Assembly (NCBI GenBank): GCA_038501625.1
Contig: JAZAYU010000128.1
Location: forward strand, 496,001-560,000
Reading direction: 5' to 3'
Length of the DNA: 64,000 bases
DNA from: Corbicula japonica
Taxonomy: Eukaryota; Mollusca; Bivalvia; Venerida; Cyrenidae
In this document: in pieces, positions 9,251-63,183 of the stretch
Layout: every line of letters begins with the position of its first letter
How positions within the stretch are numbered: position 1 is the first letter of the stretch
Made by a program: the position numbers and the translations under genes
Notes under the pieces: generated by a model
Databases searched by the model: none
What the model was told of the DNA's origin: nothing
Seen by the model: the letters and a program-made list of their open reading frames with translations, nothing else

Positions 9251-9376
9251 CTATTTCTTGAAACTTTGTTGAAATAAAAAAAAAACTCAAAAAGTTGTAG
9301 AAACTTACAACTTGATCACGTGGAAATGATCAAACACAATTGGAAGCTGTTTACCTTGTAAAATTGTAAAACTTAC

Positions 9377-9822: not shown

Positions 9823-9882
<60 letters not shown>

Positions 9883-12800
9883 ATGGTTAATAAAATATCA
9901 GTTTAAAAATAGACACCACAAACATTAAACAAAAATGAGAACCCGAGGGGCTACCGCCTTGGAACGGTCAGTGGAAAAATTAAATTGCAAAAAGCTAATA
10001 GCATTGCCAAGCCAAAGGGCGGGAACTCAATGATCTTACCGAGACCAGAGCTCCTGGAGTAAAATCAGCAAGAACTCGATGACAGCGATAAAAGAAACAA
10101 ATAGAGCTTCTAGGTTCTGTTAAGAAAAGATTTCCCTATAAACCTTCATAAACTCTTAAACCCCTGCCACCGTCGTGCAACCAAAGAGGTTAGCATAATG
10201 ATCAACTGTAGATAGGATAATAACCAGGCCTGCAGAGCGCTGTTGAATATCATGTTGGTAACCTTTCTAAAAGCTGAATAACTAATTAACAACTGACATT
10301 TGAATGCGATAGAGCGTTATGAGAGTTAATATTAGACTATATAGGAATATGTAAACTGCAAAGCAAACAATCATGTAAATCTTGTGGAACTTTTCACAAT
10401 AAATCTCCTTTTGTTTTCATTCAATGACATGACGAATTGAGAAAAGTATGTTATTTCGAGTATGTTTTCCCCAAACCTTCATCTCCGCATCCCACAGAGT
10501 TACAGAAACTTCCGCTACAACACTCCTGACAATCGACCTGGTCACCGTATGTCCGGCAGAGCTGTAAAAACACAACTGTTGAAAATGTATAAATCGTTCT
10601 GCTGCGAAGGTACTTTTTAAATGTTTAAAGTAAAAAGATAAATGGTTTTATTATTAAATGCAAACTAAGCAATTAATAATGTTCAAACAAATTAGAAATA
10701 ATGACATGTATTTGAATTGTGTAATTCATTCGAGACTTTGATAGAATATATGGAGAAAAACATTTTTACTTTAACGATATCGTCTGAAGACATAACCGTT
10801 ATCAAATATAATTCTTTTTTTAAAATGGAGGTTTTCTTTAATTTTGCATAGGTGAAAGGGACAACACAGTTGATATTTTATGTGACATTTTGTTTTCATT
10901 ATTATTTTAATAAAATGTGCTAATACTGCTCTTTTACATTTGGTTTACCGAAATAAAAGTTTATAAACCACTTAACGTAAGCGAACAGACTTGTCGGTTA
11001 CGAATTTCCGACGAATGTCTCGTAAATTTCTCATCTTTTAGGTCGCCTTTAGCTCTCGGATTTTAACTCATCATTGTTTAGGAATGAGTAACACTCAGTT
11101 ATGCAAAACAGTTTTTCCATTATGAAATTATCGCTAACAATTACGGGAATCTTAAAACAAATGTGATGCTCATACCGAACAAAGTAATGGCAATGGTTTA
11201 TCATTCACATATCATATCTTACATGCCATCATAAAACTTATTTATCCTGTGACTGTTTAGTTATGAAAAACGTTCTATACATCAGATAAATACATTTATT
11301 AAATTATTTTACTTGAATAAATTAGTTATCATATAGTCATAATCGTTATACAGTATATACATCTAGCACCGGCACATGTGAATATGTAGAGACAATTTAA
11401 CTTTATCGCCTCTTAAGATAACCTAAATCATAATTATAAGCATTACCTAGGAGGAATTGTTAGGGGCCGAAAATAACTGATGTTCACTTACAGTTTTGTT
11501 CATACAACCAGATCTGTACAACTGGACATTTTCACTTCTGGTATACCGTTGAACAAAGCATTCCTAACATAAAGATAATGCAAAATGAACACTATTTGTG
11601 TGGATAAAATGATTATGGAAAACATTTCTTTCAGAAATAAAATGATAAATAGTAGTCTCATTTAACAGTCAAAATGTATTAGGTATCAACAATGTATATT
11701 TGATCCCGTTTCGTCTAAATGATGAAACGAAAAAAAAAAACAACAAAAAGGCTAGCAGGGCCAAGATATGAACGAAATAATACACAAACATGCGAAATAA
11801 AAATAATACATATAATATGAAAGAACGGGTATTGTGAGCGAGAATAGAGAGTGAGATCGATCAAAAACCATAATAATTACGTACGGTGATAACTCAAACC
11901 ACATTATGATTTTCATGTTCGCTCTCTATAAAATAGTGAAAACATTATAAAAGAGGTTCTCCGAATGTTGTCACATGACCTATCGTCGGTATTCGGATTT
12001 CTTACGAAGTGTTTTCACCCCCCCACCCCCCCCTTCCGTGAAGAGCGAACAAGAGAAACTTTACTGTAGTTGGACAATAAAACTTTGTGCTTCGGCCACA
12101 CTTATTTAACTTGAACTCACACAGAGAGTGTTTAATACAATAGAATTTCGCAAAGCGACCTAGCCATTAACTTGCTGGTTGTTGATTGTGTAATTGAAAC
12201 ATCCTGGTTACCAAATGCGATAATTTCATCAGCTGAAAAGCTTATTGAAGTGTGACCAGAATATGTCCTGGAGACAGAATTAACAATTAAACAGAATAAA
12301 CACAAAAAGTCTTTCAACCAATGTCATAATATATCATCCCTGATAGATGTCGACACAAACCCTTCATAGAAACTGTTCTTGTCATTCGACTACTGTTACC
12401 ACACAATGGTCAGGACATCTAAAACAGAGATCTTATTACATTTTTTTCCAAATTAAGGTTCGTTTTAATGTTAAAGACTATTTATATTATTATTAAAAAG
12501 GGAGTTCATACGGACAATTTATAAATTCGTAGTATTGTATTGTTGATAGTATATGAGTAACCTATAATTCTTTTAAGGTTTGTTCATGTAACATGAAGTG
12601 ATAAACTTGACAGTAAATGTGTTGTTGTTTTTTGTTGTTTTTTTAAAAAAAAGCCTTACATCATTTTCGGTCTGGCATCTAGTCACCTTATCACAGTACT
12701 GCAAATGTGACATATTTTCACAGCTGAAGCACCATGTTCCGTTTCCAGCTACACAACATAATTATATACCGGTAATTATATTAATTTATGGCTTTACCAA

Positions 12801-15800
12801 ACACACACAAACATTAAAAGATAAACAATTGCAACAACTAGAAAACTCAAATAATAAAGTGATAGATCGATATGTGTCAATAATGACTATCATCACTTCT
12901 GACATTAAAATAAAAAAAATAATATTATTACCGTATACATTCAGTAATAGTCAGCCAAGATAATTTGTCGACGTTTACAGTTATTAATAGAATGTTAACA
13001 CTGGTAAAGGCAAATGTACGCTTTAAAAGTATTAACTTGCCATCTTCATATCACATTGCCTCGAAAGCGCAGTGGTGCTACAACGCGCCCAACTTGGGAA
13101 GTAGAACAGTGACCGATATTTCCTATTTTGGAGTTCGGTAAGTTCCGCAGAGTACCGAAAAATTACTATCAGAATAAACAAAGTTGTACGTTGTTATGAC
13201 GTCGCATGTAATAAGATACGGAATCTGAAAACCATGTTCGGCATGTTGGACCCAGTCAAACCCCCTTTCCCTCACACTACTACCCTCCTTTGAAGAATAA
13301 AAAGCTCTACAGAATTTTTTTTTCCTTTATATATACACTGTATTTTTAACAAGGTAGATATCTTCACTATTGAAAAATGCATATCTATCTGCTTTGAACC
13401 CAGTAACTCTTTGAAATACTGCTCAATTGTCACAAACTATGGCTCATATTTCGTGGGATATATGTATTAGCACATACAATCACATAAATCATTTACTTTT
13501 CGTGACATTTGGTAGCAAACACTTCGCTAACTCTCGAAATGATTTGGTCGGCTCTCGTCAGACCGATCCGTAATCGCTTAATTTACATCAGTAAAACCAT
13601 ATATGTACACGTCTTTACGTACAATCTATGCATTATTTTGAAGAAATACAATGTATTGGTTCACTTACTACTAGTTTAATGATGGATTTTCGCTTCCTGT
13701 AAGCAGCGCAACCGATATTTCAGAAATTAAATCTGGTAGTGTTCATTGATCTTTGTCATTTCAAGCGCTTGCAAAACGTCCTTGACTTTCCGTCTCTTCC
13801 CGTTATCCGAATGAGACACACCTCCACGACCTTCACCTTTTCAAGCGTCTAGATGATGTGGCTGAATTTCAGTTCAACCAAAATTCGAGGATAAATTTAT
13901 TGAAATCCTTGAAAGTTCACGCAAAAACAACGGTATTGCGATCTGGTGAGTGAACCAATACATTGTATTTCTTCAAAATAATGCATAGATTGTACGTAAA
14001 GACGTGTACATATATGGTTTTACTGATGTAAATTTAGCGATTACGGATCGGTCTGACGAGAGCCGACCAAAGCATTTCGAGAGTTAGCGAAGTGTTTGCT
14101 ACCAAATGTCACGGAAAGTAAATGATTTCTGTGATTGTATGTGCTAATACATATATCCCACGAAATATGAGCCATAGTTTGTGACAATTGAGCAGTATTT
14201 CAAAGAGTTACAGGGCTCAAAGCAGATAGATATGCATTTTTCAATAGTGAAGATATCTACCTTGTTAAAAAATATATATAAAGGAAAAAAAAATTCTGTA
14301 GAGCTTTTTTTTCTTCAAGGGAGGGTAGTTGTGTGAGGGAAAGGGGGTTTGACTGGGTCCAACATGCCGAACACCTGTGCTGAAAACCACACTAAGGGAT
14401 ATTGATTAATTGATCTGATTCGTTGTATCAAGCTTGTGGATATACGCTGTATTATGCTAATATTATTCATTAAGGGAAATAATAAGTAAGTTTATACCTT
14501 CATATCCTTGATGACCATGGGGATGAGAAACGGTGCTACCAAAATGAACTGGTCCAGTCGTCGGCCTAGCGAAAGAACTGCAATCTGGAACATTTTTAAA
14601 TCTTGATAAGCAAAAGTTGATTTTACAACATCAATACTAAGTTTAACTTTAGTGACGTAAGTTTAAAATCTAAACATATAAAAAATAATATTTGAACATA
14701 TTTTCTCGCTTATGTAGGGACTTCCCGGATCAGCATACTGGAATCGAGTAAGCTGGAATAAGTGCGAACATTTATCAGGACACTTAGTTATACCCAATCC
14801 CTGTAAATCTAATCTTGGAAACTGTAGTAATTTTGAATTTGGTAAAAAAAAGTTCAATAACAGTTATATGTTTCCTAAACTATATACTGAACAAAAAAGT
14901 ATCCAATTTTTTATGCATATATTCCCAGTAAGATATTAAAATTTAATGAGGAACTTTAGGGAGAGGGGTAATTGCAAACAGTAGGAATCTCTAGGGTTGG
15001 TCATCAAGGACGAGTTGTTTTATTAATGAATGTTTTGTGATTTTATTACTTTCTTGAAGTATCAGTAAACTACTGAGAAGGAAAAAAATACGAAAGCAAA
15101 TCGCAATAAGAAGATACGTTTTCGTTCGTCGTTCGTTCATTCGATTCACTCTAGCAGCTAAGGAATGTTATTTTCTTGACAGAAGAGTGTTTTCCAGACG
15201 TGTGCTTCATATCGAATCATTTAGAAAGGTTATACAAAAACGGTTAAAGTTATGACCGAACAGGGAAGCGAAAGTCATATCAGACCACATAATTAAACAA
15301 GCAAATAGCGTATTGCTACATGTTTGCAATGCATTTCCTCTACCGACTAGGTAAAGAGCTTGAATTTCTTGAAAACCCTAACATTGTTTTGACGAATTGG
15401 CACTAAATATTGTAGACCAGCAAATACTTATTTCAGATATGGGTTGCTTTGGTATATTGCCAATGAATTTCAGAGTTCTCATGCAAACAGTTTTTCTTTT
15501 GTTTCAGTATGTGCACTGTAATAAACATTGTTTTCTGGTTGGGATATGGGATTTCACCTTTTACCACCCAGCCCTGAAAGAACTTTTGTCGGTTTGAGTG
15601 TAAAAATTAAAAAATGGAAAAAAATTGGGGAGGGGTAAAACCACCCACGCCAAACCTACCCCACCTATAAAGACATGTTTGTCCGTCTGGTACCCACATC
15701 ACACTCTCGCCTATTTTTGTACTTAGTCCATCCCCACTACAACCCTTTTTTTCCACCTGATGATTTTGTTAACACTTCTTATACTATATGTGTCTATTAA

Positions 15801-17686
15801 CAATTTCAGGCAAAGCTATCCTGTTACAATGATTTGAGATACTACTATCGCTTGTTTAGCTTAATAATTTGAAAGCGATATTTTGATTCTGCTTTTGAGT
15901 TTTATCACTTAACAGTGTGTCTTTAACCTTTGATGTAGGGTATTCGTTTATACAATCCGTCTCGCAAAGGGGAACGTTTGTGGTAAGCCAATATGACTGA
16001 AAAAAATGGTCTAGACATAGGCATTCTGTCAAAATTTTGGCATTGAAAGTCTATGTGTGACCTTGATCTTTTATGTATGGTCATAGTTCTTACACGGGAC
16101 ACTTCGTCATTTGTGGTAATTTTTAAATCCCAAATAAATGACTGAAAAATGTTCCGGACATGGAAAGTGGTAGGACGGACGGACGGACGGACGGGAGGAC
16201 TGAATGAAGGACAGATGAAAAGCAAACCTATAGTTAACCGGTAAGGGACTAAAAACCGGAATGTTCTAGTTTTCATAGCACAGATATTTGGGACGTTTTG
16301 TTTTAAGAATGATTGAAACTCGATTGCAAAAGAAACTATAGGTAAATCACTGTACAAATGCAGCCATCTTAAGGATCAACAATTTTATGTTTTATACTGT
16401 ATAATTCGTAATCATTTGGGAGAATAATAATGGAGAACCAGCAGATATATCAATAAATGTAAAAAAAATTTTACCTGAATGTGTAAACGTCATCTGCAAC
16501 GGATATCCATAGGCGTATGTAGGGTTGAGAAGTCCATATAATACAGCTCCAAATTTTAGTCCGTTCGTATGACGCAGATAGAATAAGCTGTTATATGAAA
16601 TGTTCACAAAGACTGTCACATAATCTTCCATCGGACGTGCCACGGGTACAGTATAAGCTGTCCAGGACGACATGCTTTTTAAATTGAGCAATAGTCCACT
16701 TACGTTTGCCTTTTTGATAGTTATGGCAACGGTGCTTACATCACCATCATAAGGGTTCGTGGCAAATTTATAAGAATCAACAAATTGACTCTCTCCTTGC
16801 ACTACTGACATGTAAGGGTTACCGTACATATTTTCATTATCCACCAAGTACTGTACTAGGTATATTGGTTTGTTGGAAACAAAAACAGCTGGATCTGAAC
16901 CGAAAAGCACCTCAAACATTGCACCCCTATCCATAAATACAGCTACATGATTACTACTATTGTAATAATGTACTTCGGTGTCATCTTCGTCAACAAAAAC
17001 TCTGACAATATAGTAGTTGTGCGGATATATAGGTGGAACAATATATTTCGATGTCCAATATTTAGGAGGAACCATTTGTTCAACGAGATAATTGTAATTT
17101 CCAATTCCTACCGGAATGTAGCTATATTGTGAGCCTGAAAATACGGCAACAGGCTTGGTGCTTGTAACAACAGCTCCACTGATGTCATGATAGGGTACAA
17201 CCAACTGATATGTTTCATATTTCTGCAAACGATTGTTTACCGTCGTATATGTTTGTCCATTGGTAGTGGTGTAGTTGACTGTTATATCAGTATTGCTGTC
17301 AATCCCAACTACAAGAATCTCATTCGGATATGAACTGTAGGGATGGTACAAAGCAGTAACATATCGTGTAGAAAGCGCAGAGGTCGGTAAAACCAAAAAG
17401 CCCTCTGTTTCATAGGAACTCCCAGCCACAAGTACTGCGACGGTGATATTTTTGTCTGAATTAACTTCTATCCCCTTGAACTGAAGACCAGACTCTGATT
17501 GCATGAGGGATGTTGCTATTGATTGGGATGTGTGGTTACTTACAGTCAGTGTGGTGTCATAGTTGTTAAACGGCGCGGTTATTCGTACTTTTGCTTGTGT
17601 TTCATCCTGAACAGTGATTACTACATAGAGATAGTCAACTGAAGGAACACCAAGAACTCCAAACATGAATTCCGTACCAGCTGTAG
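9377..17686 (-). CDS. Partial gene: IgGFc-binding domain followed by three-finger (Ly6-like) cysteine-rich modules
   Basis: Minus-strand exons 17686-16475, 14584-14498, 12748-12660, 11563-11492, 10561-10477 and 9477-9377 join in one frame with matching phases (1-1, 1-1, 1-0, 0-0, 0-1, 1-0), all with GT-AG borders. The product is a secreted or surface protein. It has a 404-residue IgGFc-binding domain as in FCGBP-type mucin-associated proteins, a 28-residue linker, one complete cysteine-rich module of about 82 residues (12 cysteines, C-terminal CC....CN signature of the Ly6/uPAR fold), and the first third of a second module. The signal-peptide exon and the 3' end were not found, so this is partial on both sides. 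A role in mucosal or immune binding is known for the family and only inferred here. Confidence 0.8.
9739..10275 (+). repeat. Interspersed repeat family R1, copy 1
   Basis: Contains GAAATATGCATATCAGGAAT, GGAACGGTCAGTGG, CCGAGACCAGAGCTCCTGGA and CCTGCAGAGCGCT in an order shared with copies at 30.0, 32.2 and 33.4 kb. It lacks the middle CACTGGGGGTTTAAAC block. An AAG then GA microsatellite (9808-9881) has expanded inside it. The frame at 9746-9928 is this repeat, not a gene. Confidence 0.75.
9808..9881. repeat. AAG then GA microsatellite inside R1
   Basis: About seven AAG units followed by about 26 GA units. The same place in R1 copy 2 has only a few. Confidence 0.95.
10477..10561 (-). CDS. Three-finger module 1, last exon (CC....CN signature)
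   Basis: 85 bases, acceptor GTGTTTTTACAG, donor GAAG|GTTTGG, phase 0 to 1. It encodes LCRTYGDQVDCQECC, then SGSFCNSVGCGDE. The ECCSGSFCN string is the C-terminal hallmark of Ly6/uPAR-type domains (paired cysteines, four residues, Cys-Asn). The donor is weaker than its neighbours. Confidence 0.83.
11492..11563 (-). CDS. Three-finger module 1, middle exon
   Basis: 72 bases (24 codons), acceptor ATCTTTATGTTAG, donor ACT|GTAAGT, phase 0 to 0. It encodes ECFVQRYTRSENV, then LYRSGCMNKT. The two-cysteine pattern (CF/YVQR ... GC) is the expected middle strand of these modules, and it fits in frame between its neighbours. Confidence 0.8.
12660..12748 (-). CDS. Three-finger module 1, first exon
   Basis: 89 bases, acceptor TTGTGTAG, donor GAT|GTAAGG, phase 1 to 0. 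It encodes GNGTWCFSCENMSHLQYC, then DKVTRC. The WCFSCE start and the later two cysteines match the corresponding exon at 9377-9477 (ICFDCE...ICQTVQMC) in spacing and phase. That agreement between two independent exons supports both. Confidence 0.82.
13235..14373. mobile_element. 1.1-kb foldback element with about 430-bp arms
   Basis: Left arm 13235-13665 and right arm 13949-14373 are near-identical inverted copies starting TGTTCGGCATGTTGGACCCA and ending at GTATTGGTTCACT. The spacer is 283 bp with no clear gene. It lies in the intron between the linker exon (14498) and module 1 (12748) of the IgGFc gene. No target duplication was confirmed. Confidence 0.85.
14498..14584 (-). CDS. Linker exon after the IgGFc domain
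   Basis: 87 bases, acceptor ATGTTCCAG, donor GAAG|GTATAA, phase 1 to 1, so it joins the IgGFc exon in frame. It encodes CSSFARPTTGPV, then a His/Gly-rich end (SHPHGHQGYE). One cysteine could pair with the module that follows. The acceptor has a weak pyrimidine tract and another frame of this stretch is also open, so the call rests mostly on phase agreement. Confidence 0.6.
16040..16200. repeat. Interspersed repeat with GGAC microsatellite
   Basis: GTGTGACCTTGATCTTT, GTTCTTACACGGGACACTTC, then a GGAC tetramer run (16172-16195). This layout is typical of a dispersed repeat in molluscan genomes (recalled, not searched). The 144-codon minus frame at 15923-16357 is a read through it, not a gene. 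Confidence 0.5.
16475..17686 (-). CDS. Exon encoding an IgGFc-binding (FCGBP N-terminal-like) domain
   Basis: A 1,212-bp exon (404 codons, phase 1 to 1) with acceptor TTATTTCGTTTCAG and donor ATTCAG|GTAAAA. The domain starts GTEFMFGVLG and shows family landmarks in order: EGFLVLPTSALSTRYVTALY, KPVAVFSG, YLVEQMVPPKYW, KPIYLVQYLVD, a GNPYMSVVQG..QF block, and YGYPLQM near the end. The whole exon has no cysteine, although family members such as FCGBP carry a pair around the SGxxC...CxHxVEQ region; here those places read SGSQY and NYNYLVEQ. It has several N-X-S/T sequons. The open frame runs on into the flanking introns, but the splice sites and domain limits agree on these borders. Confidence 0.9.
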
Positions 17687-18574
17687 CTGAAACGAAATAA
17701 TTTTGCAAACATGCTATTCACTGTCTCACACTTTTTTAAAACTAGGCATACAGACTTTAAAATGTTTTTCCTAAAGTAAGCATACATGAATATCCAGTTC
17801 ATAGGTCCAGAGTAAAATACTGATTTGAGTTGAAATGTATGTATGACGCGCTTTTGTTATGGGTTATTTAGAGTCATATTGTATTATATTGTATTATACG
17901 TTTTAAGGGAATAATCTCTTTCAAATTTGGTATGTATTGGTTACCCTACCATTTACGTTGAAACACTCCTTTAAAGGCTACAGCGTAGCAATAATGCAAT
18001 CCTAAAGTTGTTTTATTAATGTTTTATTAAAGTAAGAGCTCCTTTTGAATTAAGCTCCTCGGAAGCTTTATTTGATGATACATTGATAAAACTCCACTGT
18101 ATTCGAATCATGTACACACTTTTTCGATAAGAATTTCTTTGTTTGATCTGACAGACGATTTTACGGATGAATATAATAAAAGAAATTCAAAGGACTTATT
18201 GTCCACAAACGACCCATTTACCCTTTCTATTCTTCCAAATATCTCGTACGTATTTGCATATTAACTTACAACTTCATCATGCCACTTAACGTTTTAGAAA
18301 TGTAATATTTCCGCCAAACATCGACTTATGCCGTCACTAATTTGTTTTTTTCCGAACGCCGATTCGTACGTTTCCGGTTGATACTATTTTTCGTAAAAGG
18401 AGTCTACTCTTTAGGTGTTTTCCGCGATTATGACGTTATTAATAACTAAATCAAATAATAACAAAGTGCGGATATAAAATTGATGTAAAGTAAACAAATA
18501 TTTTCATAACAAATACTCAAAATAAGTCTTTAGACGAACAACACTCAGTAATGAATAGAGCTTATATGAAATTG

Positions 18575-48740: not shown

Positions 48741-48810
48741 ATGATTCTTCTTAAGTGTTGCAGCTATTGTTTAGCGTACATTGTGATTATTTTTGTGACC
48801 TTCCGAGAAG
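48741..48810 (+). CDS. Exon 1: signal peptide
   Basis: ATG at 48741 opens 23 codons plus one base, ending at a GAAG|GTAGGA donor (phase 1). The peptide MILLKCCSYC is followed by a strongly hydrophobic run (LAYIVIIFVTF) and then RE, a typical signal-peptide layout with cleavage probably near the exon junction. A phase 1 intron straight after a signal peptide is common in secreted animal proteins. This ATG was chosen because it alone gives a signal peptide in phase with the next exon. Confidence 0.8.
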
Positions 48811-51800
48811 GTAGGACAGCTAAGCTAACGTGTTACCCAACGTTCTTGTTAAACGATGAGATATCCATTAAAATAATTGCATTGTTTTATTAAAATACGT
48901 CTTTTTATGGTTATGATTTATTTTGTGCGATAATAGTTACTAAATTCGATTTTGTCAGTAGGTGATCAGAAGATCGCCAACTATACTTGATTTAACTTAG
49001 AAAATAGAACTTTTAACAAATAAATTAAATTTATACATTTACATCCGGCAATTTGATAAAAAGTCGTTTCATCTATTTATATCGTCTCTGATTTCATATT
49101 GTTTGTTAAAACAAAGTGAATGTGTTATGCAAACATGTTTGTGAGGGTACTTTCAAACTAAATCATTTTAATCAGTGATGTTTGGAATCGGCAAGATAAG
49201 CTCAATTTTATATGGCGAACTAATTTTGATGTATCGTAGTAATAAATATACATTGTAGTACCATATTTGAGGAATATTGTATGCAAGCGTAGCTTATACA
49301 AATAAATGTATATCTAATAATATTTTAATAGAATTTAGAAATGAGTTAGTCCAGCGTTTATTTTTTAAACAAACATTTTATTTCTAAACGATAATTTTTT
49401 ATAGCTGGCTCGTCATCGTTGGCTTCTGAACATGCAGCGAATAACAAGTCGAACGTGCAGGAGAGCAGAGAAAAAAGAAGCGACTGTTTCTCTGCGGGTC
49501 AGACTGGAAAATTTCATGTAGATTGTGCCTGCAGCCATCCGAAATGCACGGTATGAGCACCGACATCTCGACACTGAGACAGGAAACCAGTTTGCTTTAT
49601 ACATTGTTTTTTAATGTGGGCACGTAAATAGAGGTTTCACATATCACAGTCAAGTTCTCCAGTTTCTGTTTTATAATGGTGTGCCTCAGCTTTTTTATTT
49701 TTTGACTATCGTCACAGAACCTAATGCGGCTAGTGTGCGTTTAATTAGCCCATTAGAAATAGACAGTGTTACCACGTTATTGATATTTGCTTTTATGTGA
49801 GAAAAGAAAACATAGAATATCTGTATAAATTATTTCTTCCATTTTTCTGCATGGCTCCCGACTGATTGCTTCAAACATATTTTTTAAGTTATTTATGTTC
49901 AATATCTATACAGAAATGAAAATTTTTACTGATCAAATACATATTAAAATCGTTAACCAGATTTTCTTTGGAAAATCCTGGTTATAAGAGTGGGGTATGA
50001 TGTTGGCAGGCGTCAACATAACCTTAAGTTGTTTTGTTTAAGTACAGATTTTCTCAGTAACAGTTTACGGTAGAGCTTTGAAAATTATCATAGTTGCCCT
50101 ATATCACAATAGCATTTATCAGGACAAATTTCTTAACGCATTACTGTATTCTGTCGTCGGTTGTCCCCTTTTCCCTTAAAATTTGAGGAGCAAGGTTGGT
50201 TTCGTCGTTAATTATACTAATAGTATACACTTATTTGTAAATTTATTTGTTAATACGTATTCAATCATTACTATCCAAAACTGTCAACAGTTGTTTCAAT
50301 GTTTTAATAAATTGTTTTGGGTTAGTACTCACATGGATAACTTGTTGTTTATTTTCGAGTAAACATTCTTTATATCATTTTATGATGTATTTAAGAGCGG
50401 TAAAAACTAATTATTTTATTCAAATTAATTAATTTTATTCTCAATTCTTGCGTTTAATTCCAGGCGGAATCATTTCGCGAAGCATTTTCTTCTGTGTGTA
50501 ACAAAGGCCAACCTTGTTACCTATCCAATAAAGACTCAGCCTACTGGTCGCCATATAATCAAGGTAGGAGCCGTTAGGCACTTTAAAGTATTGTTAGACA
50601 TTTAGGTGGTAGGGTACATATGGAAACGTATAGGGTCTCCCCTGTTAATTTAGATCGCTATATTGTTTACGCATCATAACATCTTATTATCACGCATAGA
50701 GATGATATTTGTCACATGAATAGCCAAATATACACTCAACCAAAGTTCTAATTGGTCACTTTTTGTCCGTATTTTTTGTCAGAAAGACATTGAATTCACT
50801 TTATGCCAACAACAGTCTTCAACTTAAGCTTCAATCTTGTAATAATTGATTTCGGAACAGTTTGGCGAGAGTTATCTTTAATTTTGCTAAAAATACATTT
50901 AGTTGCATAAAAAGGTCAAGCCAACATAAATTTGCTCTTGATTTCTTGTTTTGTTTAATATGAACCCTAATTAGTAGGAAAAACTTAAAACCTTATTAAT
51001 CAACAGCACATTTGTCTAAATAAATCCTCTTCAAAGTATCCAATTTTAAAATTACCTCCCTTTCAATTAAAGACTGTTCTAATTTTGACCCTGCGGTGTA
51101 CGTAAACGGTATTTGATTCTTTGAAGAAAACAATCAATGAAGATTAAAAAGACATTGGATCATTGATTTCAAGACAAAACAGTTCTTTCCAAAACCTCTC
51201 TTGACGTAGGGAAGAAACGAAACTAGCATATATTGTAAACATATATAATTGATGACCAATAATTAGAACTTTGGTTGAGTGCATCTTTGTTTGACGTAAA
51301 AATAACTGTGCAGACAGAACTGATATTTTTACTGTTATTCGCGAATTGATTTAAACCATACCAAAACTTTCTGCGAAAGATGATATTTAAATCTTGTTAA
51401 ACATGAAAAAATGAATAGCATTAATTATTATTGGAAAGTAGGTAATAATTTTCACCATGTTTCCTTACAAAAGGTTAAGGGTAAAGACATGCCAAAGTGT
51501 TTTTTTTTACTTTTTCTTTGGTTGGTAACAACTTTTAATGGTAATAGTATTAACAATGTCAAAATAAATGTTCAGTTACAAGTCATAGTGATTGTTTTTA
51601 TGAGCAAACCATAGTTTTCTATTTGAAGAACAACCGATGGCTGCATTTATCTGCTCCTGGTCAAAACTTTGTTGACTGTTCTTACTTTCCCCCATCAGTG
51701 CCGAATGTTCCAGTCTAACTGGAACCTAGAACTTCCATGTGTATATAATAATTATTGCTATAGGATCCTCGTGGGGGATCTTAATAAGACTCGAAACGTT

Positions 51801-54800
51801 GGGTGTACAGTGCGGTTTCAGAATACACTGCCTTGCCCCAGTTGCTCTAGTCTCGAGGGGTCATAATTGACCATCTATTACCTTCTCATATTTTGTGTAC
51901 TTTCGAATTCATAATTGTCGAGCTGATATGTTGGTGGAATTAATTCATTAAGACAACGTGTACTTGTTCACATGAGAAACTGTTGGGGCAAGCGAAAGGT
52001 TGGTCACACTTAACCTAGCTGTTACCCCCAAAGGAGTAACCCTTTGTAACCACAGGTTCTGATTTTCCTTCTTTGTAGTGTCCTGTTTGAAATTGATTAC
52101 AATGCATTTAAACCTATGTTGTTTCTTTTAATTTTTGACCGTGTGGGAAGACTATGTATTCTGAATGGAGGATTTTGGGTTATCGCCATGCTTTTTTAAC
52201 TCTCTATTGGCTGTCCAAACCTTCAACATAATAGAGCTAGCAGCCATTTCACCACTTTCAGAGAGAACGTTCATGATGACGTTATATATCGAAAGAAATT
52301 TGGCGCGAAAAATATCGCGTAAAACAAAACATTACGCCCAACTATGGAAACGCATAGGGTCCCCCCCTGGTAATCTAGATCGCGATAATTGTTTTAACGT
52401 CAACAAGTCTCATTTTTAAACAGTTCACGAGATATTTTTACCGTTTATCTGCAATATTTTATTGGTTAAAAACAGATATTTAACAAGAGAACATAGATAT
52501 GTTTGGCGTAATTTTTGTTTTACGCAATATTTTTCGCGCAAAACATCTTTCGATGTTACGTCATCATGAACATGCTCTCTGAAAGTGGTGAAATGGCGGC
52601 TTAGCTCTATTATGTTGAAGATTTGAACAGCCAATAGAGAGTTCTAAAAAAGCATGGAGATAACCCAAAATCCTCCATTCAGAAGACATAGCCTTCCCAC
52701 ACGGTCAAAAACATATTAGGAAAAAATATAGGATTACATGCATTATAATGAATTTCAAACAGGACACCACAAAGAAGGAAAATCATAATCTGGGGTTTTA
52801 ATTTTAGGGTTACCGCTTAAGGGGTTCAGCCAGGTTTAAGTGTAACCAACGTTATACTTGCCCCAACCTTTTCTCATGTGAACAAGTACAAGTTGTCTTC
52901 ATGAATTGACTACGCATACATATTAGCTTGACAATGGTGAATTCGAAAAAAACCCACAAAATATGAGAAGGTAATACAATGGTCAGTTATGACCCCTCGA
53001 GACTAGAGCAACTGGGGGAGGGCATTTATTCTGAAAAACGCACAGTACACCCAACGTTTCGATCACCTTAAGTTAAAAAGGGTCACACGTATTGTTGTGG
53101 GAGTCTTATGAAGATTCCCATAAAGATTCCATAGCAATAATTATAATAATATACAAATGGAAAGTCTAGATTCCAGTTAGACTGAAACATTCGGCACCGA
53201 TGGGGGAAGTTATGAACAGTCAACAAAGTTTTGACCAGGAGCAGATAAATGCAGCCATCGGTTGTTCTTCAAATAGAAAGCAGTTGGTTTGCTCATAAAA
53301 ACAATTACTATGACTTGTAACTGAGCATTTACTTTGACATTGTTACCATTAAATGTTGTTACAAACCAAAGAAAAAGTAAAAGCACTTTGGCATGTCTTT
53401 ACCCTTAACCTTTTGTAAGGAAACATGGTGAAACATATTACTTACTTTCCAATAATAATTAATGTTTTATTATACATTTATCACAAGATTAAAAAACTTT
53501 CGCAGAAAGATTTGGTATGGTTTAAATCATTTCGCGAATAACAGGAAAAATATCAGTTCTGTCTGCCCAGTTATTGCACGCTTTACAAAGATATATTTGG
53601 CTATTCATGTGAAAAATATCTATTCATGCGTGACAATATGATGTTATGATGCGTAAAAAATATAGAAATCTAGATTAACAGGGGGGACCCTATGCGTTTC
53701 CATACCCAACATATCCATGTTCTCTTGTAAAATATCTGTCTTTAACCAATACAATCTTGCAGATAAACGGTAAAGTATCTCGTGAATTGTTTTCAAATGA
53801 GACTTTTTGACGTTAAAACAATCATCGCGATCTAGATTACCAGAGGGACTCAATGCGTTTCCATAAATACATGTTCCTTTCTAATTCTATTTTGACGTCA
53901 AATAAATAATTTTGTCTCAATGTTATGCAATTTTGCAAGAATGATGAAATAGTCGTCTTTTATTTAATTGTGTTAATATTTCGACTGCCGACGTCGGTTA
54001 TTGCGAAACGCACTGCCTTTAAAGGCAACTGTGTTTCCTCTGGTTCTTCCTAAATTGAGCCATGAAACCATTACATTATGATATGAAATTTGCTTTGAAT
54101 ATAAATTAGAACAAGTATAACATATACATTATCTTAAAATGAGACATCATTGCTTTAATTTACATTTCTTTTATTTTGATGTTAAATAACGCCAAACTCT
54201 CATAGTTCATTTTACATTTCGAAAATTTAAAAAATGGCTATAACAAATTAACAAATAGCCATCCTTACGAGGTTATTTAACACACCGCAGTTTAATTTTC
54301 GACAAAGAACTTCCTTTAATTAAATTGAATCTATAAGGTAGTATTTTTTTTACTAACAAAAAGAAATGTTATTTCATATGACACTTTAAATACTCACGTT
54401 GTATTACAAAATGTTCTAAATTTGTTTTAATAATAATATAGGAGTTATTGGTAAACATATTCCGGTCCTTGGTTATTGTTTAACCTTTAATGTTATAACA
54501 TAGTATAACAAAAGTTTGTATGGCTCGAAATCAATAAAGGTTCAGGTTACGATGTCATATAATCTAAAGTATTAAGAATGGCTTATTTCTTTCTTTAGTA
54601 ATGTATACGCTCTTTTGACCAGTTTTAGGATCTTACCTTAACGTTACTCTAACAGTGCTTGTATTTGCAGAAGATACATTTCTAAGCGCACATTGCTCTC
54701 CGACACAAGGCTGTGGAGATGGGATGGGTGATTATAATTGCACGTGTCAGAGGGGCTTCGTCGAATCAGATAGCGGTAATTTATTATCTGCTTTTATGTT

Positions 54801-57800
54801 TAGCCCCATCCAGTTTACCATATGTGTCAACAAAGTGAATGTATTTATGCGTGTACTTCCTATTCAAGTCAAACGTCAAGTCAAAATCCTTTTATTCTCT
54901 CATGTCAAAAGACAAAATGAGGTCAACATATTATAATAACAAATGAGGCTCACAAGTATAATAAAAACAATTTTGTTTATCATAACCACATATTTGATTG
55001 TTATACGATATAAATAGCAATCAAGCATATGATATATAATTAGCGGTAACTAGCGATAACAAATATTATTTAATGCAATGTAACTGTTAACAAGTATACT
55101 CACTAGCATTGAGCCCGTTAACAGAGAGTCAATTTAAGACCACAGACTTCCATTTCGGTTTGCAGTTTCTAAGTAATTTTTCTGAAGATCCAAATTGTAC
55201 GTAAGGTGAACAGAAACAGGACTGAAAGGTTATTACAGTTATACGAGGTGTGTTCGTAAAGTTCGTGGACAAGTAAGAAAAACAAACTAATTTTTATCCG
55301 ATTTCAAAATATTTTATATCGTTGAAATCAGCAAAGCATCTTCTAATTACAATGAAATTTTTACAAAAATATATAAAACTATAGAAATATCACAATAAAA
55401 CAAGTATAACAGCTAACGCCCATACGCGGCAGTTTAACGTCATTTTTGTCTATCACACGACGTTAACGTCACATTTTTTCAAAATACTCGCCGTCACAGT
55501 TAACACATTTACGGTGACGTGCTACCCACTTATTGAAAGTGTCCCTAAACCAGCCTTTCTCGTAGCCACCAATCACAGTGCGCACGGACAAGCGAAGCTC
55601 ATCCAAATCCTCAAAACGCTGCCCACGTAGCTCGCTCTTCAAACGCGGAAAGAGCGCGAAATCCATCGGCGCAAGGTCCGGGCTACACGGGGCGTGCTCA
55701 AGTCGCTCCATGCCGAGGAAGTCGATCGTCTCCAGTGTGTCAGTTGCTCGATGGGATGGGGCGTTGTCATGTTGGTATATGATGTCCTCGATTTCCATGC
55801 CGGGACGTTTACGTCTGAGGGCCTTTGTTAGATCTCGACGAATAACCTAAACAATGGAAAGAACATGATTATTTTTTAATTGATTTAACATTTTTAAAAT
55901 TTGTATTTTTGTCTAACGAGTGTTTGAAACCGATTTTATCGAATAACTTTTGATTTTAAATAACACCAATTCATACTGTTTTAAAAACCGGGCATCATAC
56001 CTTCTGATAGTAGGCAGCGTTGACCGTGATTCCCTGTGGTACCGCATGCTGCAAGATCATCCCGTGCGCATCCATGAAAAACATGAACATAAACTTCCCG
56101 GATGACTTGCATGTTCTCGCCTTCTTAGGTGGTGGAGATCCTGGGTGCTTCCAGACCATTGATTGTTGCTTTGATTCAGGCTCATATAGGTAAAGCCACG
56201 TTTCGTCCATCGCGCTGCTTTCTGGTCTTGTTGAAGTAGTCTTGGCACCCACCGAGCACACACCTTGTTCATTTTAAGGGTTTCTGTCAATGTTCGGTAA
56301 ACAACATTAACGCAGATACTCGTCATGTCACTGACCTCTCGTACCGATCTCCGCCTGTCTTCACTTATGGCATCGCGAATCCTCCTGACGTCTTGTTCGC
56401 TACGCCCAGGGCGCCCGGTGCGTGTTCTGTCACTGACGTGTTCCAGTCCGTCTCTAAACTTCTTGTGCCAGCCAAACACAAGACTTCTGGATACATTAGA
56501 ATCTGCTTTCTGCATAAATTTAAGAGTATCAGTTGGTGTCATGTTCGCATTGACGCAGAACTTGATGACGCAACGGTGTTCAATTTTCAACGGTGTAGCC
56601 ATGCTGTGTTGCTTGATATGCGTTTCCGTTATAACGGCTCGTCAACTGAACAATTGACGTAAAAATGAACAAGAATGACGTCAAAAATTATTGTTGCTAC
56701 ATTTCGCGCGTTTTTTGACGTTATGTAAGAAAGGTATTTCAAGAAACTAAGATTTATTGGCTTTTTTTTTAAAGTGCCCTGTAAATTCTTTGGTGTGTTA
56801 CCATAACGACGGGTATATTTTCGGTCCATCAGTTTACGCCAAAATATTAAATATTTTGTAACATATGAAGAAAATCATATCAAATGATATATATTTTATA
56901 ACATTAACTTTAAAATTGATTGAACTACGAGGCTGTCCACGAACTTTAAGAACACACCGTAATGCAACAAAAGTTCATCAAATTTACAAAACACAGACTA
57001 AAAATCGAACCTGTGTGTAAGGATAATTCTAACAAATTTAGATGATTTCAAAAATATCGGCTTAGTGTTAGTGTTAAATAATTGATCCATTTTTAAAATA
57101 CTTGGTCTTTTAAAAATAAGGTTATTTCAAAAATTGTAATGGAATAAAATCTGAAATTCATTTCATAATTGATTTTGGCATGGGCTACACACTCGCAAAT
57201 TAATATGTATTTGTGTCCAGCCACCGGTCTCTACCGGTAACCGATGATTACGGGTTAAAAACTTTATCATGTAAAATAAATATAATTTAGTGGTATTGCT
57301 TATTAATAAATAGCCTCCCAATCCAAACTATTTAAATATTCTACATGTGATAATTTTGTTAAAGTTTTCTACACACGCAAACCATTCATTAATGAATAAG
57401 TCTTTAAGCTGATGTTGCACTGATAATTTTAGCCATTTAATATTTAGACAATTTTGTGAATCCCAAACATTAGATAAACAAGTTTTTAATAGAATTGTTT
57501 TAAGAGCATATATCCAAGGAAACGGCTTTTTAAGATATAATATACATTATTACCGAGAGTTTACTTGTTTGGGCATTTTCAAATGTATAAAGGTGAGACT
57601 AAAAAGATATTATTCGTTCCTCTATGTCATTGGTAAAGGTAGCAACCGATTTCGCCGTATACTATAATATTAGGTGTCGAGATTTTTCATTTTTAATATG
57701 TGTTTAGAAAACGAAGTTGTATTTTCTCTTAAACATCTAAATAACCATACCCCCATATTTCTGCGCCAAAAAAGAATGAGTTTGACAGTTACATGTATAT

Positions 57801-60800
57801 CAAATAAAAACTATTTGCATGTACATTTAGGAAGATCGAGTCAATTCACGTTTCTAATCAGACTGTTCATTGCCCTGGTTGCTTATTAATAAGCTGCAAT
57901 CATACTGCAAAAACTACCTCACCGGGTTATCCGATAAGCGAAATTTTCGATATATAGAACAAAGAAGGCACAGGTTTAATGTGCATAACTTTTTTTCTGC
58001 TCATCTCAATCCTTAGGTGCAAACGGTTTTATAAAATTGAATCTTTGCTTGACATTTATATATTTATTTCATAAATATTGAAGTATATTGCGATAGTCTG
58101 TTTTGAGGTTAAAGTTAACCATCTCAGCCTCCTATATACTCTATTGAAAATCGTGCAAAATCGGCGATTTGTTCGTTTTTAATGAATTAATTACACTATT
58201 TCTATTGAAATAAAAGCTTAGGTGCAAACGGATCCAAAAAGAAGACAAATTTATCTTTCAAGTGATATATTTTTTCCTTTGGAAAAATTATGTTGCGATA
58301 GTCTGTTTTGAGGTTGAAGTTAGACTATTTTTTAATTTTCTCAAAAGGAGGGAGACGATACATATTGCGCTGAATCGATAATCGTTCTCGCGGCATTTAC
58401 CTTATTTCGCGGTTGAATGGAGACGGTTTAACTAGGTGCCATTTCAGCATTTAAATAAAACTATTTTACTCTAGCTGTAAAATGAAAAAAATCCAAATTC
58501 GTAAAATCACACGATCATGTATAATTTTTGTGAGTTATAGAGATTAGACTCAATCAATGCTTTGTGTTTTACCTTCAATATGATTTGGTGTTGTTGTTTT
58601 GCTAGTGATAGTAAAGTTATGATAAATTTCGTAAAGTCAAAATTGTTGTTGCTGTAATATTCATAAAAATATAGAATTTACATTTTAAGGCACCGAAGCT
58701 TCAAACGTGTCCAACCAGAAACGAAACAAATTCTGAATTTATTAAAGTCATCGATATGCATTTATCTATCGGAGGTTGCGAATCATCATTTTTGTCCTTA
58801 AAAAGTATGAAATTTCACACCAGGTTCTGAGCGAAGTGAATGCAAACGGAGAATATCTCTCAGGAGTTTTTTCCTGTCAGTGAAAGATTCGAATCCACAT
58901 CTTTTTGACATATGTCCACGGTTCAGCACCTGTCATTTAGTAACTGACACAAATTCGGAGGATGGATTCTTCTCAGCGAAAAAACAACAACAACAAACCT
59001 GACATAAGATTAAGTTAAATAATCTTAACAAACGTATAATACCGAATTTGCGTAACCTAACAAGATAGTTAATTTATATTCAATTACAAAGTATTGTCGA
59101 AATGATCGAGACAGAACAGTAAATTTACAGAATATAATCAACACTAATTCCTAAAGTATTTAATATTCTGACTTCAATATGACTGAACTAAATTCATTGA
59201 TGTGAACACCATTTTGCCTTATTTGTTTGATGGATTTATAAAATTAACAGTAGATTTATTTTAACTTTTTACATTTCTGTATTATTTTAATTGGCTTTTA
59301 AAACGAAACAAAAATCTGCCCTTAGGTATTAAATATACGTCAACTGGTGTTTTATTGCACATGATTGTAGTTTAATTGTCCACATCCGGATTAAGTGCCC
59401 CGTTAAGCAGGAAATAATTACGTACACTGACCATCCAATTTGATTTGTTTTACTTCCCTGGTAAAAAAGCATGAGACAGGTACAAACCAGAAGAATTATG
59501 CAATTTTAAGTATGCAGAAAGCATTTTACGTCCTGAAAAAAATTGCTAAATTAATATATTCTTTGAGAATCCATTATCAACTTAAATTGCCGAAGTGTAA
59601 TTTTTTAATTCAAATATTAATCCTTTCCTCCATACACACACCTTTATTGCATTGGCGAACAGTGTAGATCCAGATGAGCTGGCACATCCGTGCCGTCTAC
59701 TGTTCGCTCTTTGATTTGTTAGGTTATCTCTGACCAAAATGTGACCAGTTCAGATCCTGATCAGATGGCACAGATGTGCTGGCTGATCTGGATCAACACT
59801 GGTCGCACATGCGTAAAAATATGTATATATGGAGGAAAGGGTTAAGACTGTAGAGTAAAAACGTTAAGTCTTGATAAATGATCAACGTTACACGCAGTAT
59901 AGTCTGCAATTCTGTTGCTTAATCGGTACATGTTTTACCTATTTAGATTTCTTTAAAAATCTTGTGTGTATCACCTTTATTCTAAATGATTTCGCGTCAT
60001 TACACGGGTTTATAATTTATTTGGGTCTACTCGAACTCGGGTCACAAAATTATTGCTATACTCGGTTCCTGATATTACAGGTTAATTATAGTATTGTTAT
60101 ATGAATATGGATTTAATAAATTAAACCAAACTCAGGAAAGAAAGAGAGAAACTGCTGGAGTTGCTGAACTCTAAAGTGAACATTTCAGCGCAAACAGACC
60201 CCATTCCCGCCCCAGCCCAGTTTTACTGTAACCAGCAAAGCAGAAACAAAAGGGTGCACGCTGTTTTAAATGAAATCGTTAAACATACGTCTTTCTTTCC
60301 TAACATATAGCTTTAATTTTATTATGATTAAATGAACTGTTTAAAAATAGTTGGTTGATGATATTTTCTGCTAGTTACTGTAATGCATGTGTTGAAGTAG
60401 ACTTAACGAAAACTAAAATACGGATATGAATACACGTGTGTTTTCTTTTAAATAATTAACATATTCTTTTTTTTAACTTATTTAAAACAGCATCTTAACC
60501 CCACAATCCATATTATTTTAGTTAAATAAAAATACCTTAAGAATGTGCACACTATTATTTTATCGATTTTTGCCTTAAGGGTATATCGGTTAAATAATCT
60601 ATCGCTCTGCCGAAGATCTTATCAAGAGTTATTGGTTTTCTAGGTGCCAACAGTCCAGTGAGGTAGTTTTTGCAGTATGTTGATTTTTGGCATTAAGGAA
60701 TAAACAACTTCTAGAGAATACGATTCTGAGATATTAAAATTCATCGACAGTTTCAATTATTTAATTTTACTGTAATGTATAATCATTTCGTAAAACTCCT

Positions 60801-63071
60801 TAAGAAAAAAATAACAATGTTAGTTTTAGAAAAAATAATATTAAGTTTCTATTGCTCACAATAGTTTACATACATATTAAGTGCATTTTGGAAATCTTGC
60901 TCACTCTCTGACATTAATGACCGTATCATCAGCATATAAAAGAATAAAGATTTTTAAAAAAAATTGTATTATTTATTTAGGGTTTTATCGTTTGCTATAG
61001 TGACATCTTGTAAGTTTGCTTCTTCTGTAGTAAAAGTAATGAAATAAGTTGTTCAAAAATAATGAAAATAAAAGAGTTGATATTTTTTTCCTTGTCGAAC
61101 GCCAATGTTGCTCGTAAAAAAATTGAGCATGTTGAATTTATCCGAACGCACGATTATATATTTTAAACATGTTTTTAATTAATTATATTAAGACATTTTA
61201 CATTGATATTTGTTATTAAGAGTTTATTCCAAAGACCTCTCCAGACCGTGTCAAATGCTTGTTTAAGATCTACAAAACAGTTTCTTTCTCCAATTATTTA
61301 AATTATTAATTAAACTATTTAGTACAAATACATTATCAGTTGTCGACTGCCCTTTTCGAACACCCGCTTGACTATTATGTAGAATGTTATTGGTTTCTAT
61401 AGACTTAGTGATTTGGTTTTTCATAAATGACGTAAACAATTCTCCTAAGCAACTTAATAAAGTTATTGGACGGTAATTTTCTGGCTTAGACATGTCATCT
61501 TTTTTCCTGTATATTGGGCTTATATTCAAGTGGTTCAATGTAAACTAAAGTACGTGTTCATTAAAGGTACTTTTGGCATAGAGATTTTAGTTTGAGTTAT
61601 TCCCAGACAACTTTGTGACCCGCGCAAAGTTATGCACTTAATATAATTTAGTTTTAGTTTCATTCTTATTCCGAATACAATTTTCATTGTAAGTCGGGTG
61701 TTCCAAGTACTGAGAACCGAAGTTTTGAAGGTCGACGAACATAATGAAAGGTTGGGCTGGTTCTGTGATATAATAATAAATGTTTCTGGAACCTTAATTA
61801 AAGCTACATTTAACAACTTTTGTGATTTCTGATATAATCAATACAAAAACTGTGTAGCTCGAATGGAATGTAAACAAAATTAAACAGTTATTTCAATAAT
61901 CGTTGACTGGCATTCATTACCTACATCCTTTATGTAGTTTTATGCTTGCATACTTATCACTCAATTAACTGTATAGTGTCTCTTCTTGTTTTAATTTAAA
62001 ATAATATTTTTTAAATACATTCAGATAATTTAAACACAGATAAATAGTTTCTTTAATAATAATTTGCGTTTTAATGGTTTCATCGAATCAAAATGAAGCT
62101 TTAGTAGTTAAACTCGAAACAAAATGATTTTGCGTCAACATCCTAAAGTATTTATGTTGAATATTAATAAATTATATCTTTTTTATTAGTGCTGTTGTTT
62201 TCTTTTCAGATCTTAAGGTCATCTTGCCGGCAACTATTGTACCTGTGGTGGGAATAGTTCTCCTGGCGTTAGCCGCATTTCTGGCTTACAGATGGTATAA
62301 ACGAAGAACTAAACAAGTGTAAGCTCTGTTCACATGCTTGTCATAACATATAAATTTCACCAGTACTTTCATAAACAAAAAATTACCAATCCACATTGCC
62401 ACAAGTAGCTATTATTTCTACCTGAAAATATTTCAAAAGACAAGGTACTAACTTTCAGAAAGTACTGATAACCATTGGTAGCTGCCAGCATTTAAGGATT
62501 GTATATACATTTGTTAAATCTGGATAGAATTATGCGCCTTTGAAGTTGCATTACACTTAATTTAGGAACGGAGAATCCTGTTAGTGTCATAATCTTAAAC
62601 TACCTTTTGGTTGTAACTCATGGACTCAGCAGTATGAATCCCTGTGAAAATACTATGTGCTAGATCGGGAGTAATTTTAGAATAAAGGGGAAATTAACAG
62701 GTATAACAAAAATTTGATTCATTCCTGATTGTGTATTTCTTCAAATTAGACGTGTTAATGAAACATATTCCAGTATACATTATTCTTACAAAACTTATGT
62801 TTTTCAGTGTTAAACTGATATTTTCGTTAAAAATTCTCAAAGCGATATGCTTATCTTTAGCTCTAACAGTACTGTACATGTACATGTATATGTCATTTCA
62901 TTTTACTAACCCTATGTAAAGCACCAAAGTGTGATTAAATGCTTTAGTTAGTACTCTTTCACTTCCACTTCTTCCATTTTCAGTTCTCCAACAGAAAATC
63001 ACCATGCAGCAGAAAATGCAGACAGCATGCCCAGCAACACGATGTATAAAAATAGAGTTCTACTTCAGTAA
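48741..63071 (+). CDS. Six-exon gene for a 205-residue type I membrane protein with a cysteine-rich, EGF-like ectodomain
   Basis: Joining 48741-48810, 49405-49550, 50464-50563, 54671-54775, 62210-62318 and 62984-63071 gives one open frame of 205 codons plus stop. Every intron is GT-AG and every phase matches (1, 0, 1, 1, 2). Predicted order: signal peptide (about residues 1-23), a polar linker with a furin-type REKR site, a ten-cysteine ectodomain whose membrane-proximal part looks EGF-like (NCTCQRGF), one hydrophobic segment (about 21 residues) followed by a basic stop-transfer stretch (YKRR), and a short cytoplasmic tail ending NRVLLQ. This fits a cell-surface receptor, adhesion protein or shed ligand precursor, but no named family is recognised. 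Sequons are NKS (linker) and NCT (EGF-like part). Introns 3 and 4 are full of transposons. An AATAAA follows 107 bases after the stop. The splice pattern is seen directly; the function is inference. Confidence 0.85.
49405..49550 (+). CDS. Exon 2: linker with furin-type site and first four cysteines
   Basis: Acceptor TTTTTTATAG, donor ACG|GTATGA, 146 bases, phase 1 to 0. It encodes a polar Ser/Asn/Glu-rich stretch with an NKS glycosylation sequon, then SREKRSDC, which matches the R-X-K/R-R furin consensus, then a cysteine cluster (DCAC, KCT). If cleaved, the mature ectodomain would begin just before its first cysteine. There is no stop in the chosen frame. Confidence 0.82.
50464..50563 (+). 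CDS. Exon 3: ectodomain segment with two cysteines
   Basis: Acceptor TTTAATTCCAG, donor CAAG|GTAGGA, 100 bases, phase 0 to 1. The 33 codons read AESFREAFSSVC, then a KGQPC segment, then an aromatic, polar stretch (SAYWSPYNQ). Only this frame is open and it joins exons 2 and 4 without a break. The following 4.1-kb intron holds the nested inverted-repeat element. Confidence 0.82.
50619..53865. mobile_element. Nested long inverted-repeat (foldback-like) element
   Basis: The arms 50619 to about 52340 and about 52500 to 53704 are inverted copies over more than 1 kb. Examples are the TATGGAAACG terminus at 50619 and its complement ending at 53704, and the TGACCGTGTGGGAAG word near 52137 pairing with 52691-52710. 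The spacer (52343-52500) starts with the same terminus and is itself repeated inverted at 53705-53865. The terminus therefore occurs four times (50619, 52343, 53704, 53865). Short open frames in the arms are mirror images of each other, not genes. The element fills most of intron 3 of the membrane-protein gene. Confidence 0.8.
50733..51281. mobile_element. Tc1/mariner-type MITE inserted in one arm of the foldback element
   Basis: A 549-bp insert with terminal inverted repeats CACTCAACCAAAGTTCTAAT. The left flank is TA and the right flank is CA, consistent with a TA duplication with one change. The matching place in the other arm (near 53590-53605) is uninterrupted, which shows the empty site. 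Confidence 0.8.
54671..54775 (+). CDS. Exon 4: EGF-like membrane-proximal segment
   Basis: Acceptor CTTGTATTTGCAG, donor AGCG|GTAATT, 105 bases, phase 1 to 1, the class typical of shuffled EGF-type exons. It encodes AHCSPTQGC, a Gly/Asp-rich loop, then DYNCTCQRGF. The last part matches the C-X-C-X2-GF core of EGF domains. Only four cysteines lie in this exon, so a standard six-cysteine EGF fold would need partners from exon 3 or would be truncated. The NCT sequon could be glycosylated. Confidence 0.85.
55469..56602 (-). pseudogene. Mariner transposase, split by a probable intron and broken by a deletion
   Basis: The N-terminal part from ATG at 56602 (MATPLKIEHRCVIKFC) has the paired helix-turn-helix region and a TGRPGRS linker. 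The catalytic part shows MDETWLYLYEPESK (first Asp), HDNAPSH (second Asp) and SPDLAPMDF (third Asp), with exactly 34 residues between the last two. Between QDQKA and MDETW, about 30 residues usual in mariners are missing and the frame changes near 56215, so the gene is inactive as it stands. A 154-base GT-AG segment (55847-56000) interrupts the frame at YYQK/VIRRDL in phase 0. The C-terminal part from 55846 is open to its stop. Confidence 0.88.
55847..56000 (-). other. Probable spliceosomal intron inside the mariner transposase
   Basis: GTATGATGCC ... TCCATTGTTTAG, AT-rich and 154 bases, between codons for YYQK and VIRRDL. Removing it restores the expected mariner reading without a shift. Confidence 0.6.
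58012..58330. repeat. Diverged direct duplication, about 205-bp period
   Basis: CTTAGGTGCAAACGG (58013, 58218) and GCGATAGTCTGTTTTGAGGT (58089, 58295) occur twice in the same order. Confidence 0.7.
59621..59841. mobile_element. piggyBac-type MITE with TTAA target duplication
   Basis: 221 bp between two TTAA copies (59617-59620 and 59842-59845). Ends TCCTTTCCTCCATA and (complement) CCCTTTCCTCCATA. The inner arms also pair (GTGTAGATCCAGAT against ATCTGGATCAACAC). No coding capacity. TTAA plus CCCTTT-type ends are the piggyBac hallmark. Confidence 0.75.
60630..61548 (-). pseudogene. Degenerate non-LTR retrotransposon reverse transcriptase
   Basis: Read on the minus strand through several frameshifts and stops: ISPIYRKKDDMSKPENYRPI, then TLLSCLGELFTS, then QAGVRKGQSTTDNVF, the motif A region CFVDLKQAFDTVW (about 61220-61270), GVRQGK (61090-61103) with STLLFSLFLNNL, and the catalytic YADDT (60922-60936) followed by a VDEF.YL-like end. 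The order is that of an RT domain of the jockey/CR1-like group. There is no intact frame; this is an old 5'-truncated fragment in intron 4 of the membrane-protein gene. Confidence 0.85.
62210..62318 (+). CDS. Exon 5: transmembrane segment
   Basis: Acceptor GTTTTCTTTTCAG, donor AAGT|GTAAGC, 109 bases, phase 1 to 2. It encodes DLKVILP, then a hydrophobic helix of Val, Ile, Leu, Ala and Gly residues ending FLAY, then the basic stretch RWYKRRTK. This is a textbook single-pass segment with positive residues on the cytoplasmic side. A stop falls just inside the intron if the donor is read through, so splicing is needed for the tail. Confidence 0.87.
62984..63071 (+). CDS. Exon 6: cytoplasmic tail and stop codon
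   Basis: Acceptor CTTCTTCCATTTTCAG, 88 bases including TAA at 63069-63071, entered in phase 2. It encodes SPTENHHAAENADSMP followed by SNTMYKNRVLLQ. The tail has one tyrosine and a C-terminal LL pair that could act in sorting, though neither is a strict canonical signal. The other two frames either stop early or break the join to exon 5. Confidence 0.82.
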
Positions 63072-63177: not shown

Positions 63178-63183
63178 AATAAA
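63178..63183 (+). terminator. Polyadenylation signal AATAAA
   Basis: Canonical AATAAA 107 bases after the stop codon of the six-exon membrane-protein gene. This is a plausible short 3' UTR end, but the cleavage site itself cannot be seen. Confidence 0.5.

Follow-up and report, generated by a model that had tools for sequence, protein, structure and literature searches.

In the epidermal growth factor (EGF) domains of proteins such as factor X (EGF1), Notch and fibrillin, a typical core spacing is accompanied by an aromatic residue before the CxC motif and by a phase 1-1 exon, and PRRG proteins are short transmembrane proteins. The PRRG/TMG proteins are transmembrane Gla proteins that combine a propeptide bearing a basic cleavage site with a small ectodomain (in part after PMC5578492). 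Features of both systems recur in a six-exon gene on the plus strand of a 64,000-nucleotide stretch of the Corbicula japonica genome (C128:496001-560000, where C128 is contig JAZAYU010000128.1); this whole stretch is called the window, and exon positions are given in its coordinates. Like the PRRG/TMG proteins and the light chains of clotting factors, the predicted product has a propeptide with a basic cleavage site and a small ectodomain, like PRRG it would be a short transmembrane protein, and its exon 4 shares the three EGF features listed above. The six exons almost certainly constitute a genuine gene, coding for a member of a small clam protein family. The product is best explained as a type I protein of the cell surface that is processed by furin and serves as a receptor or in adhesion; to this reading as a whole we would assign a probability of about 60%, its receptor or adhesion function by itself being less likely than not.

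The gene has relatives on its own contig. When the window protein was used as the query for a protein search of the 1.07 Gb assembly, 18 of the 22 matches represented the six exons of three copies, in order and all on C128: copy A (C128:425994-432022; L021 1991-8037), copy B (C128:436734-440920) and the window gene itself (C128:544741-559068, plus strand), the contig positions being match ends and copies A and B beginning 119 and 108 kb upstream of the window gene. The remaining four matches were weak (C1313, C330, C442 and C610; E 0.55-7.2), and no convincing paralogue was found inside the window, further matches all having E values of 3.5 or worse. Copy B, which is intact and agrees with the window gene in exon boundaries and intron phases, encodes 204 residues that share 83% identity with the window protein. 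In copy A, GTG replaces ATG, the end of exon 3 is interrupted by an in-frame stop, the EGF-like core has undergone a Cys-to-Tyr exchange and the C-terminus is altered, all of which mark this copy as probably a pseudogene.

A further relative came from another clam. The search of 5.8 billion proteins was word-limited, reaching relatives with shared short exact words within a length band, and the window protein as a single query gave 197 candidates, none of them at E <= 1. When a profile built from the window protein together with copy B was used instead, the sole match at E <= 10 among 4694 candidates was the uncharacterised 216-residue Mercenaria mercenaria protein LOC123524836 (P0014; E 8e-26, 40-41% identity). 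A profile search of proteins had been proposed in an earlier, sequence-only reading of this DNA; the same reading had called the protein unrecognised, which is right in that it is uncharacterised but not in that its homologue had already been annotated. No mention of LOC123524836 was found in the papers searched. Over the ectodomain 36 of 86 residues are identical to those of the window protein, over the juxtamembrane and membrane segment 18 of 34, and the ectodomain alignment score of 182 compares with at most 82 in 2000 shuffles in which the cysteines were kept fixed. P0014 resembles the window protein in its hydrophobic N-terminus, in an SRxKR motif followed by xDC (present also in copies A and B), in all ten ectodomain cysteines (spacings within three residues) and in the DLxVxLPATIVPVVG membrane segment, and differs from it in the C-terminus after the exon 5/6 junction. 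Because the ten-cysteine pattern is common to both proteins, it is likely to be ancestral. Copies A and B have two additional cysteines, at window-protein positions 67 and 140, that are found neither in the window protein nor in the Mercenaria homologue (exons at L022 3466-3608 and 5140-5244 and at L021 3415-3560 and 4663-4767); these may be gains in the two copies and may pair as a new disulfide. As judged from these sequences, the membrane protein family has so far been seen in clams only. For specialists this is a modest annotation result, in all likelihood a gene that is real but ordinary: three loci are added to a family with one annotated, uncharacterised clam relative found in the single profile search made.

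The joined exons (48741-63071, plus strand) form 618 nt in a single frame, which translate into 205 residues and a stop codon; all five introns are GT-AG, with phases 1, 0, 1, 1 and 2, and 45 nt ahead of the ATG there is an in-frame stop, no further ATG lying between the two. Exon 1 (48810 being its last position, 48741 its first) holds the ATG, conserved in copy B, and encodes the putative signal peptide, residues 1-23 together with the first base of codon 24. Exon 2 (49405..49550) covers the propeptide, the furin-type site REKR (residues 45-48) and the first four ectodomain cysteines, and exon 3 (50464..50563), whose boundaries are the same in copy B, covers the middle of the ectodomain with cysteines 84 and 90, both of which are present in P0014. 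Exon 4 (54671..54775) has the same boundaries in copies A and B and encodes an EGF-like half module. The juxtamembrane segment, the membrane helix predicted by hydropathy and a basic stop-transfer sequence follow on exon 5 (62210..62318), and exon 6 (62984..63071) encodes the cytoplasmic tail and the stop, with residues 178-205 identical in copy B. A candidate polyadenylation signal, AATAAA, is located at 63178..63183 on the plus strand, about 107 nt past the stop. The ten cysteines lie between residues 51 and 131, followed by one helix at about 145-167 and by the basic sequence RWYKRR, an arrangement that fits a cytoplasmic C-terminus by hydropathy, and type I membrane topology is very probable.

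The GC content of the joined exons, 0.443, was equalled by 19 of 100,000 random draws. Splice sites were scored with hand-entered splice frequencies; of all GT sites in the window the donors fall in the top 0.6-4.6%, and the acceptors are among the top 0.2-2%, except for the weak exon 2 acceptor (top 15% of AG sites). The complete six-exon gene claimed in the sequence-only reading is borne out by the frame, the GT-AG introns, the intact copy B and the Mercenaria homologue, and the latter two also back the prediction of a type I membrane protein that carries a furin-type site, a ten-cysteine ectodomain and one helix. Of the splice sites that it called strong, the exon 2 acceptor is weak, and of the 14.3 kb over which the exons extend, about 10.1 kb has no counterpart in copy B, whose own span is 4.2 kb.

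Comparison of the window gene with copy B supports the view that the gene is under purifying selection and is selectively maintained. The synonymous divergence (dS) is 0.360 and the nonsynonymous divergence (dN) 0.086, giving a dN/dS of 0.239, with a bootstrap range of 0.15-0.39 and none of 500 resamplings at or above 1. The ratio is 0.09 for the membrane segment and tail and 0.34 for the propeptide and ectodomain, and exon 6 contains six silent and no replacement changes, which would have a chance of about 8e-5 under neutrality. Identity is 0.873 in exons and 0.824 outside, and one 3-base gap in the exons compares with 27.8 gap openings per kb outside them, a count from which a single match of the window to copy B was dropped as non-collinear (window 52830-52964). 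The order of the copies on the contig, the boundaries and phases of copy B, the dN/dS of 0.24 and the Mercenaria homologue are the reasons for regarding the gene as more than a product of chance. Short and far-apart exons that look like noise to simple scoring thus represent a selectively maintained gene, which was recovered through paralogues within the same genome. Exon 3 (50464-50563) is unusually alike among the copies, with a dS of 0.09 against 0.36 overall in the comparison with copy B and 96.6% identity over 87 nt in that with copy A, and this likeness may reflect gene conversion.

Several observations weigh against a maintained surface receptor. Exon 3 alone has a dN/dS of 1.21 (two silent and eight replacement changes). 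Pairs that include the broken copy A also have low ratios (window-A 0.42, A-B 0.36), so part of the selection signal is shared history. The P0014 tail is unrelated past the exon 5/6 junction, with 5 of 23 aligned residues identical, and any motif in the tail is consequently seen in this genome only, although the family as delimited here does not depend on a common tail; the divergent C-terminus of P0014 perhaps stems from another last exon or from the end of the annotation. Two structure predictions, a check named in the sequence-only reading, had a mean predicted local distance difference test (pLDDT) score of 53.2 and 52.1, a confidence too low to help. Finally, a simple home-made gene finder, which used a hand-entered set of splice frequencies and amino-acid background, was compared with shuffled DNA. 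After excision of the mariner-like stretch of intron 4 (see below), six penalties were tried, at which 21, 24, 31, 55, 53 and 57 of 100 shuffles scored at least as high as the best plus-strand chain; each time this chain was also outscored by the best one of the minus strand. Nevertheless, with either of the two lowest penalties the plus-strand chain picked exons 3, 5 and 6 exactly and found the correct donor of exon 4 and, at the lowest penalty only, that of exon 2. With the region left intact, the best plus-strand chain exceeded all of 25 shuffles at each of three penalties, but it took in mariner-like pieces every time and was itself surpassed by the minus strand. The evidence from the single sequence that the gene exceeds chance is only weak, and simple scoring did not separate it from shuffles.

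If the product is a furin-processed surface receptor or adhesion protein, its signal peptide would direct it into the endoplasmic reticulum, and furin or a relative would cleave after SREKR48, leaving a mature chain that begins with SDC. The ectodomain would be compact, about 93 residues with ten cysteines that probably form five disulfides, the last four cysteines making an EGF-like hairpin beside the membrane, and a single helix would lead into a cytoplasmic tail of about 38 residues. The constrained membrane segment and tail would couple the receptor to the cell interior. Motifs of the pYxN type are of the kind bound by the Grb2 SH2 domain, and the tail contains YKNR, which we take to be such a motif. 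A function in cell-surface recognition or adhesion is a tentative guess from this anatomy. That the proteins are clam-restricted recognition receptors with a new five-disulfide fold, encoded by local duplicates that co-evolve with interleaved IgGFc-binding genes and whose disulfides can be rewired (67/140), is a more specific proposal and appears unlikely.

The main rival is a membrane-anchored growth factor of the EGF type, whose membrane-side EGF-like module would be shed and would activate a receptor on adjacent cells. A single EGF-like hairpin directly before the helix, together with the furin-type site, would suit such a ligand, and a three-sequence profile matches EGF domains (factor X, Notch and others) over residues of about 109-142. 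The exon 4 core, C-x5-C-x8-C-x-C with the sequence YNCTCQRGF, indeed has the C4-x-C5 hairpin on its phase 1-1 exon. However, the window protein has F and S at the positions of EGF C1 and C6, copy B lacks C1, and P0014 lacks both cysteines, in contrast to EGF domains; because of these absences exon 4 is, on its predicted sequence, an EGF-like half module and not a canonical EGF domain. The Pfam scores of the window protein remain below the curated cut-offs (EGF_3 16-17.6 bits versus 28.5, EGF_CA 16.4 versus 27), and no EGF family is listed in Pfam scans of copy B and P0014. The EGF-like NCTCQRGF core recognised in the sequence-only reading thus holds for the hairpin and the exon phase but not for a full domain. 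In addition, the stronger constraint on the membrane segment and tail than on the propeptide and ectodomain (0.09 versus 0.34) is unlike that of a ligand that acts outside the cell, and a growth factor seems improbable.

Somewhat less probable still is that the family is real but that its member in the window has fallen silent or is in decay, its length having been more than tripled by insertions. The two large stretches that are absent from copy B, together about 10 kb, are located in intron 3 (50602..54005, 3.4 kb) and intron 4 (54870..61522, 6.65 kb), and copy A is broken. In the window copy, however, the frame has stayed open, every splice site is in place and the ten-cysteine pattern shared with P0014 persists, and the pairwise dN/dS of 0.24 also argues against decay, although recent silencing would leave no trace in it. 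The intron 4 stretch contains mariner-like transposase pieces and a reverse transcriptase fragment on the minus strand (55469-56602 and 61263-61538); one transposase piece matches Pfam HTH_32 below its cut-off. The intron 3 stretch contains a large imperfect palindrome, the arms of which are 78-95% complementary around a centre near 52.43 kb, and looks like a foldback-type element.

A third alternative, that the protein is a relative of the Gla-EGF light chains, that is, a transmembrane homologue of the vitamin K-dependent clotting factors, is highly improbable. It is suggested by a phmmer search of PDB sequences, in which the factor X light chain matched residues 59-141 at E 8.5e-5 with YW..Y aligned over the FW..Y aromatic stack, and by two- and three-member family profiles in which factor X takes the top place (E 1.2e-5 and 3.3e-5, the matches covering residues 92-144 for the most part and 61-142 in one chain), with Notch and other EGF domains following at lower scores. 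Split queries traced the factor X signal to the EGF-like core and the stretch around YW..Y (E 2.6e-5). However, unlike in the PRRG/TMG proteins and the light chains, no Gla domain was found: the Gla-region query alone matched no Gla protein, its only match being a collagen at E 1.6, no Pfam Gla family was listed at E <= 10, and two of the eight factor X glutamates in the aligned Gla stretch are kept. Neither copy B nor P0014 retains YW..Y, and P0014 as the query misses factor X; what it does match in that search, at E 0.15 or worse, looks like chance. A genome-wide search for PF00594 gave nothing, but neither did its controls, and it is therefore uninformative. Membership in the factor X/Gla group was rejected on the missing Gla matches and on the failure of P0014 to find factor X, and we read the persisting rank of factor X in the profiles as similarity of the EGF-like core. 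The last alternative, a chance assembly of unrelated open segments, could appeal to gene-finder scores inside the shuffle range, but it is refuted by two further six-exon copies and a homologue in another clam, and its probability is close to nil.

In the neighbourhood of the surface protein gene (C128:404001-494000, the window and C128:560001-590000), the ten-cysteine genes alternate with IgGFc-binding genes on the opposite strand. The larger IgGFc-binding copies (loci L030-L031) are located on the minus strand at window 9374-17690 (C128 505.4-513.7 kb) and at C128:561164-575534, the latter tail-to-tail with the window gene at a distance of about 2.1 kb, and partial matches occur near 433.5 and 450 kb and, close to the end of the stretch read, at 589.6 kb. 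The IgGFc-binding open frame in the window matches 13 proteins, six of which carry species names (four Mercenaria, two Ruditapes), and the downstream exons of these IgGFc-binding genes match Mercenaria proteins that also bear PF00021 (uPAR/Ly6). An Rfam scan of the window gave no match at gathering scores. A tandem array with three copies of a 136-base unit is present at window 8790-9180.

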